Assembly: GCF_000305775.1 (NCBI RefSeq)
Contig: NC_018866.1
Span: forward strand, 2,251,001-2,315,000
DNA length: 64,000 bases
Reading direction: 5' to 3'
DNA from: Dehalobacter sp. DCA
Lineage (GTDB): Bacteria; Bacillota; Desulfitobacteriia; Desulfitobacteriales; Syntrophobotulaceae
In this document: positions 1 to 46,884 of the stretch, piece by piece
Layout: each line of letters begins with the position of its first letter
Numbering within the stretch: position 1 is the stretch's first letter
Position numbers and translations under genes: made by a program
The notes under the pieces: generated by a model
Told to the model about the DNA's origin: nothing
What the model saw: only the letters and a program-made list of their open reading frames with translations
The model's database searches: none

Positions 1-1074
1 TTCCTGAATCCTGGCCCCAAGTTTGTTCAGCTCTGATGCCGTTGCTTTGAGTCTGTCCGATTCTTTGATCCGGAGTCTTCCAGCATTAATGATTCTGGTT
101 GTGCCTTTGCTTAAAGAAGCCAGGACTGCAAGCACAGGTACCAGATCCGGACACTGGCCGGCATCAATTACCATTCCCTCAGTCGGACCACCCAGCACTT
201 CTAGACTGTCATCCATCCAATAAATTCGGGCACCCATCCCCAGCATCATATCGAGAATCGCCCTGTCCCCCTGCAGGGACCGAGCATTTAGATCCAGACA
301 TTTCAGACCGGACCCCAGTGTACCTGCCACCAGCCAGAACGCAGCCTGGGAGTAGTCTCCTTCAATGCGGCAATTAATTGCCTTATACCGCTGCTTTCCT
401 GGAATAAAAAATTCCTGGTATGCGTTGTTTTGTACGGTTATTCCCGACTTTTCCAGCGCATCGATGGTCAGGTCAACATAACCGCGGGATTCTAGTTCCG
501 TTGTAACGACAATTCTCGAATCTCCGTCCAAGAGCGGCAGCAAAAACATAAGTCCTGTAATAAATTGAGAGCTGACATTGCCTTTCAGTTTATACTCACC
601 CGGTGAAAATCTCCCTTTGATCGTCAAGGGCAAATATCCGTCCCGGGTCTGATATTCGATTCCGTGCAGTTGAAACAGCTCATAATATGCGTCCAGAGGA
701 CGCTCCACCAGCTTGCCGGCACCGGTAAAGGTCACCGGGCTTCCTGTCAGTGTGGCCAGCGGTATCAGAAATCTCAGCGTAGATCCGGATTCCCGGCAGT
801 TGATTGTTTCCTGCGCGATTTGAAGCTTCGGGTTCCCTTCCAGCCAAAGCGCGCCTGGTTCACCAGGGTTCGCCGAGACTTCCCCGACGGTTGTACCCAG
901 AGACACCAGCCCGTCCAAGGTTGCAGAAATATCTTCAGAAAAAACAAGATTGTCAATGCTGCTGGTCCCCTCAGCCAGTGCGGCACATATCACTGCCCGG
1001 TGACTGATGCTTTTGGAAGGAGGTATCCTGATCTCCCCTGTTAAGGTTGAAGGTTGCAAGCGTAAGCACGTCAA
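1..1074 (-). CDS. aroA: 3-phosphoshikimate 1-carboxyvinyltransferase (EPSP synthase), 3' end cut by window edge
   Basis: Transfers enolpyruvate from PEP to shikimate-3-phosphate in the shikimate pathway (cytosol). The frame is open from a TTG start at 1074 to base 1, giving 358 residues of the roughly 430 expected. The TTG has a good AAGGAG ribosome site 8 bases upstream, and no nearer ATG fits. Seen motifs: PPSKSISHR at residues 18-26 (catalytic Lys21), CRESGSTLRFL around residue 90, and RIKESDR near the cut end. The ESGSTLRFL form is typical of clostridial enzymes. It begins 12 bases after the tyrA stop, so it is the third gene of the aroF operon. The stop codon lies outside the window. Confidence 0.95.
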   Translation of the reverse strand, partial: MTCLRLQPSTLTGEIRIPPSKSISHRAVICAALAEGTSSIDNLVFSEDISATLDGLVSLGTTVGEVSANPGEPGALWLEGNPKLQIAQETINCRESGSTLRFLIPLATLTGSPVTFTGAGKLVERPLDAYYELFQLHGIEYQTRDGYLPLTIKGRFSPGEYKLKGNVSSQFITGLMFLLPLLDGDSRIVVTTELESRGYVDLTIDALEKSGITVQNNAYQEFFIPGKQRYKAINCRIEGDYSQAAFWLVAGTLGSGLKCLDLNARSLQGDRAILDMMLGMGARIYWMDDSLEVLGGPTEGMVIDAGQCPDLVPVLAVLASLSKGTTRIINAGRLRIKESDRLKATASELNKLGARIQE

Positions 1075-1086
1075 GAAAATCTCTCC

Positions 1087-1941
1087 TTAAAACTTTTCTC
1101 TGCCCCGGCTGGCGTTCTCAAGCATTTGTTTCAGCGAATCCCGGTCCTTTTCTGCGACCGCCGTTCGGATCATCCGGACGTTTTCGATGAACACGTCAAT
1201 TTGTTCTAAAATATTGTCTTTATTCTCGAGTAGAAGTTCACTCCAGAGCTCGGCATTCATTCTCGCGACCCGTGTTGCATCGCGGAAGCTGCCTCCGACA
1301 AAGCTGCCGGTATCCTCAGCACAGGAACTGTTCATCAGGGCGGCCGCAATGACATGCGGAAGCTGACTTGTCAGCGCAATTATTTCGTCATGTTTATGCG
1401 GTTCCATTCGGATCGGCTGTCTGCAGCCGAGACCAAGAATCAGCCTTTCCACCAGTCTCAAGCTTTCATTCTTCGTGCCGTCGATTGGGGTAATCAGATA
1501 GTTGGCCCCCCGAAAAATCTCTTCAGAAGCGTAGGCAAATCCGCTGGATTCTTTGCCAGCCAGCGGATGTCCCCCGACGAAGCTCAAATCTTCCCTTAAG
1601 ACTGAACTAATCTCCTGAACGACTTGTTCTTTGAGTCCTGCTGTATCCGTAATCAGGGCACCGTGTTTAAAATAGGCCAGGTTGTCTTTTACAAACTGAA
1701 CGGCAAGCTCCGGATAGATGCAGATCACAACAATATCCGAGCTTTGCAGCGGAATGCTTGCCTCCGTGAATCCTTTGCTGATCACACCCGTTTTTTCTGC
1801 TTGTTCCAGTACGCTGATGTTAACATCGATTGCCCAGATTTTCTTTGGTTTTAGTTTATTCAAAGCCATGGCGAATGATCCGCCAATAAGTCCCAGACCC
1901 ACTACCGTAATTTCCATACTACCAAAGTCCGGTTCTTCCAA
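1087..1941 (-). CDS. tyrA: Prephenate dehydrogenase
   Basis: Oxidises prephenate to 4-hydroxyphenylpyruvate for tyrosine synthesis, using NAD(P). About 284 residues. The N-terminal Rossmann motif GLGLIGGS is at residues 15-22, GGHPLAGKESSGF lies in the middle, and the helical domain carries HDEIIALTSQLPHV. There is no C-terminal ACT domain, so feedback by tyrosine would have to act elsewhere, for example through aroF control. I chose the TTG at 1941 because a GGAGG site sits 8 bases upstream. The GTG at 1950 overlaps that site, and the ATG at 1917 has none. It lies between aroF and aroA in one operon. Confidence 0.93.
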   Translation of the reverse strand: MEEPDFGSMEITVVGLGLIGGSFAMALNKLKPKKIWAIDVNISVLEQAEKTGVISKGFTEASIPLQSSDIVVICIYPELAVQFVKDNLAYFKHGALITDTAGLKEQVVQEISSVLREDLSFVGGHPLAGKESSGFAYASEEIFRGANYLITPIDGTKNESLRLVERLILGLGCRQPIRMEPHKHDEIIALTSQLPHVIAAALMNSSCAEDTGSFVGGSFRDATRVARMNAELWSELLLENKDNILEQIDVFIENVRMIRTAVAEKDRDSLKQMLENASRGREKF

Positions 1942-1971
1942 GAAATCCACCTCCAGGGATCATCTTATTGA

Positions 1972-2985
1972 TTAAATAATCTTATTCTGTATAACCGCCA
2001 GCTGTCTCAGCGAATCCATTAAAGCCTCGAATCTCTCAGGTTTGATAGACTGCTGCCCATCACATTTGGCATTGGCCGGGTCGTTGTGCACTTCGATCAT
2101 GACACCGTCGGCACCTACGACCATCGCTGCTTTAGCCATCGGTTCGACAAGCCACCACAGCCCTGCCGCGTGGCTTGGATCAACAATAACCGGAAGGTGA
2201 CTCAGTTTCTTGATCACCGGCACAGCAGTCAGGTCAAGCGTATTTCGGGTGTAATTTTCGAAAGTCCGAATGCCTCTTTCACAGAAAATAACATTCTCGT
2301 TGCCATGCGCCAGAATATATTCCGCAGCGAGTAATAATTCCTCAATCGTCGAGGATAACCCTCTTTTTAGAATCACCGGTTTTTGAATTTTTCCGACTTC
2401 TTTTAAGAGTTCAAAGTTCTGCATATTACGGGCGCCGATCTGAATAATATCCACGTCTTCAACGAATCTCTCCAGATATTCAGTCGACATTAATTCCGAG
2501 ACGATTGGCAGTCCTGTCTTGGTTCTGGCTATTTTCAGAAGTTCCAGACCATCTTCTCTTAAACCCTGAAAGCTGTACGGTGAGGAACGCGGCTTAAAAG
2601 CGCCGCCTCTTAAAAAAGCAGCCCCGGATTTTTTGACCGTTTCGGCAATGCCGACGATTTGCGTTTCACTTTCTACCGAACACGGACCGGCAATCACAGC
2701 AAAGGTGTCGCCGCCGATTTTTCTGTCCCCGACACTGATGACCGTATCTTCCGGGTGGAATAAACGGTTAACCTTTTTAAATGGCTCCTGAACATGAATG
2801 ACTTTTTCAACATAATCATTTGCATGCAGCGTGTCCGGGTCAATGCTGCTGGTATTCCCGATCAATCCAAGAATATGGTAGTTCACGCCTAAAGACTCAT
2901 GAACCTCACATCCTAGGTCCAATATCTTCTGTTTCATCTTCGCGATCTCCTCTGGTGGCGTCTTCGGCCTCATCACAATAATCAT
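1972..2985 (-). CDS. aroF: 3-deoxy-7-phosphoheptulonate (DAHP) synthase, type I-beta
   Basis: First step of the shikimate pathway: PEP plus erythrose-4-phosphate gives DAHP. 337 residues. An N-terminal ferredoxin-like regulatory domain (about residues 1-75, starting MIIVMRPKTP) is followed by the TIM barrel. Barrel motifs seen are AGPCSVES, LRGGAFKPRSSPYSF, ILKRG and VDPSHAAG. This domain order is that of the Thermotoga-type enzyme, in which the N-terminal domain binds Tyr/Phe. The ATG has an AAGGAGGT site. It heads the aroF-tyrA-aroA operon and is preceded by a leader-peptide attenuator (see 3121-3294 and 3042-3080). Confidence 0.96.
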   Translation of the reverse strand: MIIVMRPKTPPEEIAKMKQKILDLGCEVHESLGVNYHILGLIGNTSSIDPDTLHANDYVEKVIHVQEPFKKVNRLFHPEDTVISVGDRKIGGDTFAVIAGPCSVESETQIVGIAETVKKSGAAFLRGGAFKPRSSPYSFQGLREDGLELLKIARTKTGLPIVSELMSTEYLERFVEDVDIIQIGARNMQNFELLKEVGKIQKPVILKRGLSSTIEELLLAAEYILAHGNENVIFCERGIRTFENYTRNTLDLTAVPVIKKLSHLPVIVDPSHAAGLWWLVEPMAKAAMVVGADGVMIEVHNDPANAKCDGQQSIKPERFEALMDSLRQLAVIQNKII

Positions 2986-3041: not shown

Positions 3042-3080
3042 TAAAAACAGAAGGCTCATTATTTCTAATGAGCCTTCTTT
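3042..3080 (-). terminator. Attenuator (intrinsic terminator) in the aroF leader
   Basis: On the minus strand a 12-bp stem GAAGGCTCATTA / TAATGAGCCTTC with a GAAA loop is followed by a U-rich run (TGTTTTTATTC). It lies between the aromatic leader peptide and aroF, in the same orientation. The 5' arm (bases 3065-3073) can instead pair perfectly over 9 bp with CTAATGAGC at 3147-3155, inside the leader-peptide coding sequence. That gives a mutually exclusive antiterminator. The two alternative helices are read directly from sequence; the regulation is inferred. Confidence 0.85.
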
Positions 3081-3120
3081 AACAGTATCGTATTTCAACT
3101 TCGGTTTCTCTCGACCGGGG

Positions 3121-3294
3121 TCAGGCCGCAAGGCATTTTCCCGGACGCTCATTAGTGAAGAGAGAAAGTATTCGATTGTAGAACAACCAAAAATAACCGG
3201 TGCTAAAATAAAAATAATAATAGCACTGGCTAAAGCTTCTAAACGTAAAGCTATTGATTTTGATTTGTTCTAGCATTCTCTTACCGTTAAGCAT
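3121..3294 (-). CDS. Aromatic-rich leader peptide controlling aroF
   Basis: A 57-residue ORF in the aroF leader. Residues 24-39 read CYYYFYFSTGYFWLFY, with six Tyr, five Phe and one Trp in about 16 codons. That is far above chance for a short untranslated leader. The start chosen is the ATG at 3294, with GGGAGA 6 bases upstream; another ATG two codons earlier overlaps that site. A TTGACA/TATAAT promoter lies just upstream. The codons after the aromatic block contain the antiterminator arm. By analogy with trp and phe leaders, ribosome stalling at Tyr/Phe/Trp codons would favour antitermination. No T-box consensus was found. The peptide itself is probably just a sensor. Confidence 0.8.
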   Translation of the reverse strand: MLNGKRMLEQIKINSFTFRSFSQCYYYFYFSTGYFWLFYNRILSLFTNERPGKCLAA

Positions 3295-3330
3295 TTTCAT
3301 TCTCCCAAAAGGTACTTTTGAGTTTTGTTC

Positions 3331-3360
3331 ATTATACCGTATAAATTCTTTGGCTGTCAA
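3331..3360 (-). promoter_or_regulatory. Promoter of the aroF leader/operon
   Basis: On the minus strand TTGACA (3360-3355) and TATAAT (3336-3331) are both perfect consensus hexamers, separated by 18 bases. Transcription would begin near 3324, about 30 bases before the leader-peptide start. The promoter sits in the short gap after the fmdE-like gene, so the aro operon is transcribed independently of it. Confidence 0.85.
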
Positions 3361-4015: not shown

Positions 4016-4164
4016 GATTGGTCAGTCCTTTCTTAAATAACGCGGTAAGCTCATTCAATCGTCACTATTGCTTCAATCGGTAGTTCTAAAATTAGTATAC
4101 CTATTATACACTATAATTCACTGGTACAACGTTCTCAAATTATTTTCACGTATTTATTAGGGCT

Positions 4165-4271
4165 AGTCTAGGGGCCACAATACCGCTTTTCGGCTATTGT
4201 GCCCTCCGTGGCACAAAAAGCCGCGCTTCGCATCCATGCTCCGCTCGCAGCGGAACTGTGGCCCCCAGACT
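4165..4271 (-). ncRNA. GC-rich structured intergenic element A with ANGGA hairpin loops
   Basis: This element fills the centre of the 364-base gap 4016-4379. The outer arms AGTCTRGGGGCCACA and their complement pair over about 22 bases with three mismatches, closing a large stem-loop. Read on the minus strand, inner hairpins include UUGUGCC-ACGGAG-GGCACAA (7-bp stem) and GC-AUGGAU-GC. Both expose an ANGGA hexaloop, the known CsrA/RsmE recognition shape. On the plus strand the loops have no such motif. No clear U-run terminator follows it. It could equally be a palindromic repeat without an RNA function. Confidence 0.35.
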
Positions 4272-4379
4272 GATTATCAGCCTGTTTAAGTTCGTCTGCA
4301 TGCCAAAATTAAATCAATTTGAATGCTGGATATGTTTACTTATTTCCAAAGCGTTCTACTAGAATGGTCATCGTAGATC

Positions 4380-42300: not shown

Positions 42301-42422
42301 AAAAAAACTGTGGAACTATAATTGTTGGAAATATAGTCCCACAGGGTTTGTCTCCTGCTGCCAGTATACCGGCCCAGCCTTATACACCTAAATCAAGTGT
42401 CAAGTGTATCGGCCTGATCGAT
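42301..42422 (-). promoter_or_regulatory. NiCo (czcD) riboswitch with terminator in front of the CDF exporter
   Basis: On the minus strand CAGGCCGAUACAC, GGCUGGGCC, GGCAGCAGG and CCUGUGGGACU occur in the order and spacing of the NiCo aptamer's four-way junction (same blocks as at 46574-46660). The last helix strand CUGUGGGACUAUA also pairs with UAUAGUUCCACAG, making a 13-bp terminator ending in UUUUUUU at 42301. Ligand binding would keep the terminator from forming and turn on export. The outermost helix P1 is weak. Confidence 0.85.
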
Positions 42423-42521
42423 GCGCAATATTTTTTGATAAATCAAGAACCAGTATATTTGAAAACAACCTCTACTGTCAATATCGTTTTGCCTAAAACT
42501 TGAGATAGCTCTACCTAAAAT

Positions 42522-46550: not shown

Positions 46551-46587
46551 TAAAAATACCTGTAGAACATTTTACTGTCCCACAGGT
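46551..46587 (-). terminator. Riboswitch terminator in front of the P-type ATPase
   Basis: ACCUGUGGGACAG pairs with the complement in AUGUUCUACAGGU (12 bp), followed by AUUUUUAUA. The 5' arm is the last aptamer strand (46574-46587), so terminator and aptamer exclude each other. Confidence 0.8.
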
Positions 46588-46660
46588 ATATGTTATCATC
46601 ACCTGCTGCCCATCGGGCCCAGCCCCATGAACTTGTGTCCAAGTTCATCGCCTGCTCAGT
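46574..46660 (-). promoter_or_regulatory. NiCo (czcD) riboswitch aptamer in front of the P-type ATPase
   Basis: Reads ACUGAGCAGGC-GAUGAACUUG ... CAAGUUCAU-GGGGCUGGGCCC-GAUGGGCAGCAGGUG ... CACCUGUGGGACAGU-type blocks on the minus strand, matching the published NiCo aptamer in every conserved segment, including P1 (ACUG/CAGU). Binding Co2+, Ni2+ or, as shown more recently, Fe2+ stabilises it and prevents termination. The rest of the gap up to 46884 is AT-rich with no gene seen. Confidence 0.93.
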
Positions 46661-46884
46661 TTGTACTGTAGATTAATATGCAGTGCAAAGAGATAGTTGA
46701 ATTTTACCATATCGTTTTTTTTTAAGCAATATTTTATGCAAATTTTATTTAGACGATTTTATTTAGCATTTTAAGGCATCAGCTTTTTTTAATGAATAAT
46801 TAATTGAATTTTAGTGGACATTTAATAAATATCGTATACGATTGAAAGAGACCAATTTTTTAATATTACGCAAAGGATATAAGG

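Follow-up and report, generated by a model that had tools for sequence, protein, structure and literature searches.

The aroF locus of Dehalobacter

The window, that is, the whole stretch of 64,000 nucleotides analysed here, comes from the closed, 3.07 Mb genome of Dehalobacter sp. DCA (NC_018866.1, positions 2,251,001 to 2,315,000). On its minus strand, a consensus promoter, a leader ORF, a terminator and a 9-bp alternative pairing lie ahead of aroF, with the following features (window coordinates).

1..1074, minus strand: aroA (EPSP synthase), operon gene 3, running past the window edge (L220)
1087..1950, minus strand: tyrA, prephenate dehydrogenase, operon gene 2
1972..2985, minus strand: aroF, DAHP synthase, operon gene 1 (TIGR01361, NF006421)
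3042..3078, minus strand: terminator (helix 3:4), a 13-pair stem (3078-3049) and then the U-tract GTTTTTATT
3065..3073, minus strand: arm 3, GCTCATTAG, 5' side of the terminator and perfect complement of arm 2
3121..3294, minus strand: leader ORF of 57 aa (MLNGKRMLEQIKINSFTFRSFSQCYYYFYFSTGYFWLFYNRILSLFTNERPGKCLAA), from ATG 3294 to stop 3121; peptide conserved in 17 genomes
3147..3155, minus strand: arm 2, CTAATGAGC, inside the ORF; predicted antiterminator with arm 3, its 5' end shared with P1a
3178..3225, minus strand: control-codon block CYYYFYFSTGYFWLFY, residues 24-39; Tyr and Phe conserved, Trp not
3221..3232 and 3194..3205, minus strand: hairpin P1c, 5' strand TAGCCAGTGCTA and 3' strand TAGCACCGGTTA, bracketing the Tyr/Phe run (loop)
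3265..3273, minus strand: P1b, CTAGAACAA, pairing with TTGTTCTAC at 3186-3178 (Val/Leu-Glu-Gln codons with Leu-Phe-Tyr codons)
3278..3290, minus strand: P1a 5' strand (arm 1), TTAACGGTAAGAG, pairing with CTCTTCACTAA at 3162-3152
3331..3360, minus strand: promoter TTGACA-18 nt-TATAAT, with 12/12 consensus matches and present in most family relatives in the alignment

Beyond the window, aroC and pheA are the next genes after aroA. The operon order aroF-tyrA-aroA-aroC-pheA joins enzymes of the common pathway to the Tyr and Phe branches, and its products are exactly Tyr and Phe, the same two amino acids as the conserved codons of the leader. A putative ribosome-binding site, GGGAG (3306-3302), is placed 7 nt upstream of ATG 3294, which we took as the start because the ATG at 3300 is too near GGGAG. 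A density of 11 aromatic residues in a 16-aa window was reached by none of 1000 dinucleotide shuffles, and the predicted fold of the leader RNA is 5.4 sd more stable than those of its shuffles.

Most of what the original prediction had read from this region was confirmed by these data: the consensus promoter (3360-3331), the 57-codon ORF with its aromatic block at residues 24-39, the strong terminator ahead of aroF, the perfect 9-bp pairing (3155-3147 with 3073-3065) and the identity of aroF itself. The stem P1 described below, which would complete the switch, was absent from its list. Elsewhere in the window, a long inverted repeat (GGGGCCACAATA...GTGGCCCCC, about 4158-4275), perhaps the remnant of a mobile element, lies between two genes, and two NiCo (cobalt/nickel) riboswitches (42332-42431 and 46573-46669, minus strand) score above the Rfam gathering score.

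Conservation of the leader in the family

Of the family's 25 genomes, a covariance model found the leader in 17, most of which were also recovered by a DNA search, and the promoter, the ORF with the Tyr/Phe block, the terminator and the 9-bp pairing are all kept in these 17. The relatives include Candidatus Dichloromethanomonas, Gracilibacter and Peptococcaceae MAGs. The covariance model (R1) gave no clear match over 49 genomes of two sister families; its weak matches were in G049 (E = 0.012) and, as second ones, in G011 and G012. A search of viral contigs with the consensus peptide gave no match. The aroF leaders of genus g8 (L016, L017, L019) and genus g20 (L069, L070) have diverged strongly and place the stop codon within arm 2 or right at it. 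In genome G021 pieces of a group II intron lie upstream of the leader (L010, 1-340).

The family alignment gave the leader peptide consensus KRxVEQxNxFxFxSFSQCYFYFYFSTGYFCLFYKRIxxLLSNE. Indels in the ORF among the 17 leaders are of 3, 6 or 15 nt, with the sole exception of a 4-nt indel in the most divergent relative, in which the ORF remains open across arm 2 in another frame; because the frame differs there, arm 2 is preserved as RNA and not as peptide. Trp is absent from nine of the 17 leaders, and many relatives have a Cys or Ser codon in place of the lone Trp codon. The proposal that ribosome pausing at Tyr, Phe and Trp codons antiterminates aroF was therefore retained for Tyr and Phe, whose codons are conserved, and Trp was rejected as a signal. 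Relatives lacking the codons or the pairing, which had been named as the finding that would speak against the proposal, were looked for; the 17 leaders retain the Tyr/Phe codons and 99% of the pairs between arm 2 and arm 3, and the proposal withstood this check.

This conservation bears on the simplest alternative, namely that the ORF is a gene for a small functional protein with an ordinary terminator, aroF being transcribed from elsewhere. The 57-aa ORF does have a promoter and a terminator, but the ORF is complementary to the terminator arm in 17/17 relatives, no further promoter-like site on the same strand was seen between the terminator and aroF, and the C-termini of the peptides in far relatives (below) are unrelated. 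We regard a small protein gene as very improbable.

Competing helices and the stem P1

Pairing was evaluated in an alignment of the 17 leaders (A1), with the variable stretch from arm 2 to the terminator excluded. The terminator is conserved and covarying, with 96.6% of cells paired and four pairs changed on both sides. Arm 2 and arm 3 form 9/9 pairs in 16 of the 17 leaders (99.3% of cells paired), and three of the pairs have changed on both sides. To the extent of these three and four changes, the covariation foreseen for the two competing helices was observed. Since arm 3 is common to both helices, 2:3 excludes 3:4. In all 17 family members arm 2 is within the ORF, 20-56 nt ahead of the stop codon.

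The ORF itself also supplies the third helix (1:2), the long stem P1, whose apical loop contains the first Tyr/Phe codons and whose base abuts arm 2. In P1a, Lys-Arg codons pair with CTCTT just 5' of arm 2 and, in several relatives, also with bases 1-4 of arm 2; the lower four pairs are 93% formed and the upper part, which overlaps arm 2, 59%, with compensatory changes. P1a is strongest in three relatives (G012, G013 and G014), and its upper part is poorly paired in Dehalobacter itself. P1b has 95% of cells paired and three pairs changed on both sides (for example, G-C to A-U four times), and P1c, which recurs in far relatives, is paired in 99% of the family's cells and has two pairs with compensatory changes. 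Directly after the 3' strand of P1c stands TTTTTG (3193-3188), with the spacing that a pause hairpin would have, suggesting that P1c and TTTTTG together may act as an RNA-polymerase-pause-like element. Over its 26 pairs, the whole of P1 is 85.9% paired, compared with 37-49% when the strands were slid, and ten pairs carry changes on both sides where shuffles gave 3.3, a test that kinship among the sequences can inflate. This inflation is countered by the drop in the slid versions and by the recurrence of changes at column pair 60:170 (G-C to A-U or G-U).

The covariation in P1 also bears on whether a nascent chain could be the sensor. As in TnaC, whose nascent chain senses Trp, a translated arrest peptide with the motif F-S-x-G-Y-F might sense free Tyr/Phe in the exit tunnel, and not uncharged tRNA. 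The length of the leader peptide and its conservation, also outside the aromatic codons, exceed those of classic attenuator leaders, and the motif S-(A/T)-G was seen again in far relatives. However, the replacement of Cys/Ser by Trp/Thr accompanies the change of GTGCT/AGCAC to GTGGT/ACCAC, in which the partners change together. The conserved non-aromatic residues can be explained by RNA pairing, because they lie in P1b/P1c and change together with their partners. Moreover, it is the density of aromatic residues, and not the peptide sequence, that persists in far relatives. An arrest peptide is thus unlikely.

T-boxes and other RNA families

Genes for aromatic amino acids in Bacillota are the textbook case of T-box and TRAP control. 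At the aroF leader, however, no T-box, riboswitch or other Rfam family was matched, the T-box (RF00230) being absent even at a relaxed threshold, and the leader was likewise unmatched by the Rfam covariance models Phe_leader and Trp_leader. The same genome has 12 T-box matches, including those at trpE, trpB and pheS (L107, L111 and L115), and aroF is not among them. In the sister family, T-boxes stand ahead of 3 of 20 DAHP synthase genes. These two occurrences could suggest that the aroF leader is itself a diverged T-box, but with no match even at the relaxed threshold we find this hardly credible. The genome would seem to divide its aromatic control, with T-boxes for Trp and PheRS and the leader peptide for Tyr/Phe. 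Several of the sister-family aroF genes without a T-box match (among L081-L088) have a conserved terminator, GCACCCTCTATTCAGGGTGC, shortly upstream.

A translation-free RNA element, either a riboswitch or a protein-binding leader, could also run the terminator, the ORF being incidental. P1 is long and covarying and could be an aptamer. Nevertheless, the ORF has a ribosome-binding site and frame-preserving indels, the Tyr/Phe codons are conserved even where the RNA sequence of far relatives differs, and Rfam gave no match. Such an element seems quite unlikely here.

Leaders beyond the family

Across the wider phylum we applied a fixed rule to the sequences upstream of aroF (a Shine-Dalgarno sequence and an ORF of 12-90 aa containing six or more F/Y/W in 12 residues, then a terminator). 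The rule was matched by 15 of 86 aroF genes, all of them among the 26 closest to the query, and by 0/516 dinucleotide shuffles and 0/86 reverse strands. In a second draw, which is the fairer test because the rule was written after the first examples had been seen, 9 of 16 more passed, and two genomes of genus g20 passed too. In total, outside the family, the rule was passed by 26 of 45 members of the same aroF clade, from about 15 families, compared with none of 79 aroF genes outside the clade (0/59 other aroF and 0/20 sister-family aroF). One match (L138), whose terminator is 219 nt away from aroF, may belong with a different gene.

Examples of the far leader peptides are MNASTQNKTSYFFYFYGWSFFSAGFLP, MKNLTGRTFAEFYYFFSQYYFYFSTGYWFCKK... 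and MHNPLASKINQVNNFYFKNWCFYFSTGYLRC... In these far relatives the ORF, the hairpin and the terminator are kept, as is the aromatic density, whereas the peptide sequence is not, and the C-termini are unrelated. Many of the far leaders share the hairpin TAGCynGnGCTA-loop-TAGCnCyGGyTA, with Tyr/Phe codons in the loop. When the arms alone were aligned with a dummy loop, this P1c-type hairpin was 86% paired, with six pairs changed on both sides. The complementarity between arm 2 and arm 3 of the far leaders also exceeded that of shuffled spacers (combined p about 1e-8, with kinship ignored). In two further leaders (L211 and L215, YYYYFYF), a 15-bp hairpin has the Tyr/Phe codons in one of its strands and not in its loop.

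Tentatively, and with somewhat less than even confidence, we propose that these leaders represent a largely unrecognised, old class of Tyr/Phe attenuator, which travels with one aroF clade through about fifteen families of Bacillota and is built around a conserved pause-like hairpin holding the control codons in its loop.

A proposed model of attenuation by the translating ribosome

On the comparative evidence the leader is functional. Three features expected of a ribosome-mediated attenuator are present, namely an ORF with codons for the products of the pathway, a terminator, and an antiterminator sharing an arm with the terminator. We consider it probable (roughly 0.85), judging from the sequences, that the leader is a ribosome-mediated transcription attenuator of aroF-tyrA-aroA-aroC-pheA, which would read the charging of tRNA-Tyr and tRNA-Phe.

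In the proposed mechanism, RNA polymerase would be held at P1c until this hairpin is melted by the arrival of the first ribosome. With ample Tyr and Phe, the ribosome would traverse the block and arm 2 during the synthesis of arms 3 and 4, so that the terminator would form and the operon would be off; by an alternative route to the same state, P1 would re-form behind the ribosome, and the terminator would follow. Under a shortage of Tyr or Phe, the ribosome would stall in the block or at its end, with P1 unzipped and arm 2 free, and pairing of the free arm 2 with arm 3 would allow the operon to be transcribed. Unlike in E. coli trpL, a ribosome waiting at the stop codon should leave arm 2 uncovered, because the stop is 20-56 nt past arm 2; the off-state proposed here is the re-formation of P1 behind the ribosome. 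This position of the stop speaks against the model, as does the poor pairing of upper P1a in Dehalobacter.

We modelled these states by partition-function folding of the 17 leaders with a ribosome footprint of about 30 nt. With the footprint covering arm 2, which places the ribosome 5-12 codons beyond the block's last Tyr, the predicted probability of helix 2:3, P(2:3), was about zero in 17/17 leaders. With the ribosome 1-3 codons past the last Tyr, the mean P(2:3) was 0.67-0.77, compared with 0.45 without a ribosome, whereas a stall in the middle of the block gave about 0.45-0.5, near the value without a ribosome and varying among leaders. The model thus strongly supports the prediction that a running ribosome terminates, and partly supports the prediction that a stalled ribosome antiterminates, namely for stalls at the end of the block. 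Because a stall in mid-block leaves P(2:3) near the value without a ribosome, kinetics, queued ribosomes or the polymerase pause would be needed there.

Relation to known systems

Transcription outruns translation in B. subtilis, and the two are thought to be uncoupled. If the old attenuator class is real, the ribosome would be kept close to RNA polymerase at the aroF locus. The leader could also serve as a natural reporter of transcription-translation coupling in clostridia, because the switch needs a ribosome close behind the polymerase. If many clostridial lineages control the entry of the pathway by a translation-coupled attenuator, this would add a class of regulator for which the signal, the helices and the control codons are all predicted, and it would aid the annotation of aroF operons in Dehalobacter and its relatives, which are used in bioremediation.

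In enterobacterial pheL and trpL the stop codon stands before or within arm 2. These attenuators (pheA/pheL and trpL) resemble the aroF leader in encoding a peptide rich in the amino acid(s) being regulated and in the mutually exclusive helices 1:2, 2:3 and 3:4, a scheme that is predicted for aroF; they differ in that there is no sequence or Rfam match between them, and in that the aroF leader would govern aroF-tyrA-pheA by Tyr and Phe jointly. In contrast to trpL of E. coli, arm 2 of the aroF leader lies inside the ORF, ahead of the stop, although the diverged leaders of genera g8 and g20 have the classic stop geometry of trpL. T-box leaders (RF00230) respond to the same signal, tRNA charging, and control the same genes in sister lineages, but they bind the tRNA directly without translation and are absent at Dehalobacter-type aroF.

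Within Bacillota, the Leu-rich leader peptide of the S. aureus ilv-leu operon (Kaiser et al., PMC5794164) is also an amino-acid-specific attenuator, differing in its Leu codons, its target (the ilvD operon) and its occurrence in Bacilli. In bacilli, leader peptides with His codons stand before hisS/hisZ; Naville and Gautheret (PMC2965389) reported them as the first known beyond Proteobacteria and Actinobacteria. They likewise replace a T-box, but differ from the aroF leader in their codons and target genes. Ribosome-mediated attenuation is also known for bmrCD of B. subtilis (PMC4191407).

The open-access literature yielded no description of the clostridial leaders, of control by Tyr, or of P1 or the antiterminator; the original prediction likewise knew of none for a clostridial aroF. 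The idea as such is not wholly new, since a Phe uORF before aroF of Acholeplasma has been published (PMC8632094). This motif, uORFC-13-1, with a Phe uORF and a terminator before aroF, was reported in 2021 from Acholeplasma and environmental sequences only; it shares with our leader a uORF with Phe codon(s), a promoter, a terminator, the site before aroF and proposed attenuation. Compared by the published text only, it has at least one Phe codon, and the text is without a 1:2/2:3/3:4 scheme (PMC8632094), whereas the Dehalobacter-type leader has a block of Tyr and Phe codons, a covarying P1 and an antiterminator, and occurs in about 15 families. Among published elements uORFC-13-1 is the nearest to our leader, and the two may belong to one class; the genomes of family f17 (1.1-1.7 Mb) may be the same group as its Acholeplasma carriers. 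What is surprising in the Dehalobacter-type leader is its breadth in Bacillota and its layout, with arm 2 inside the ORF, and not the principle.
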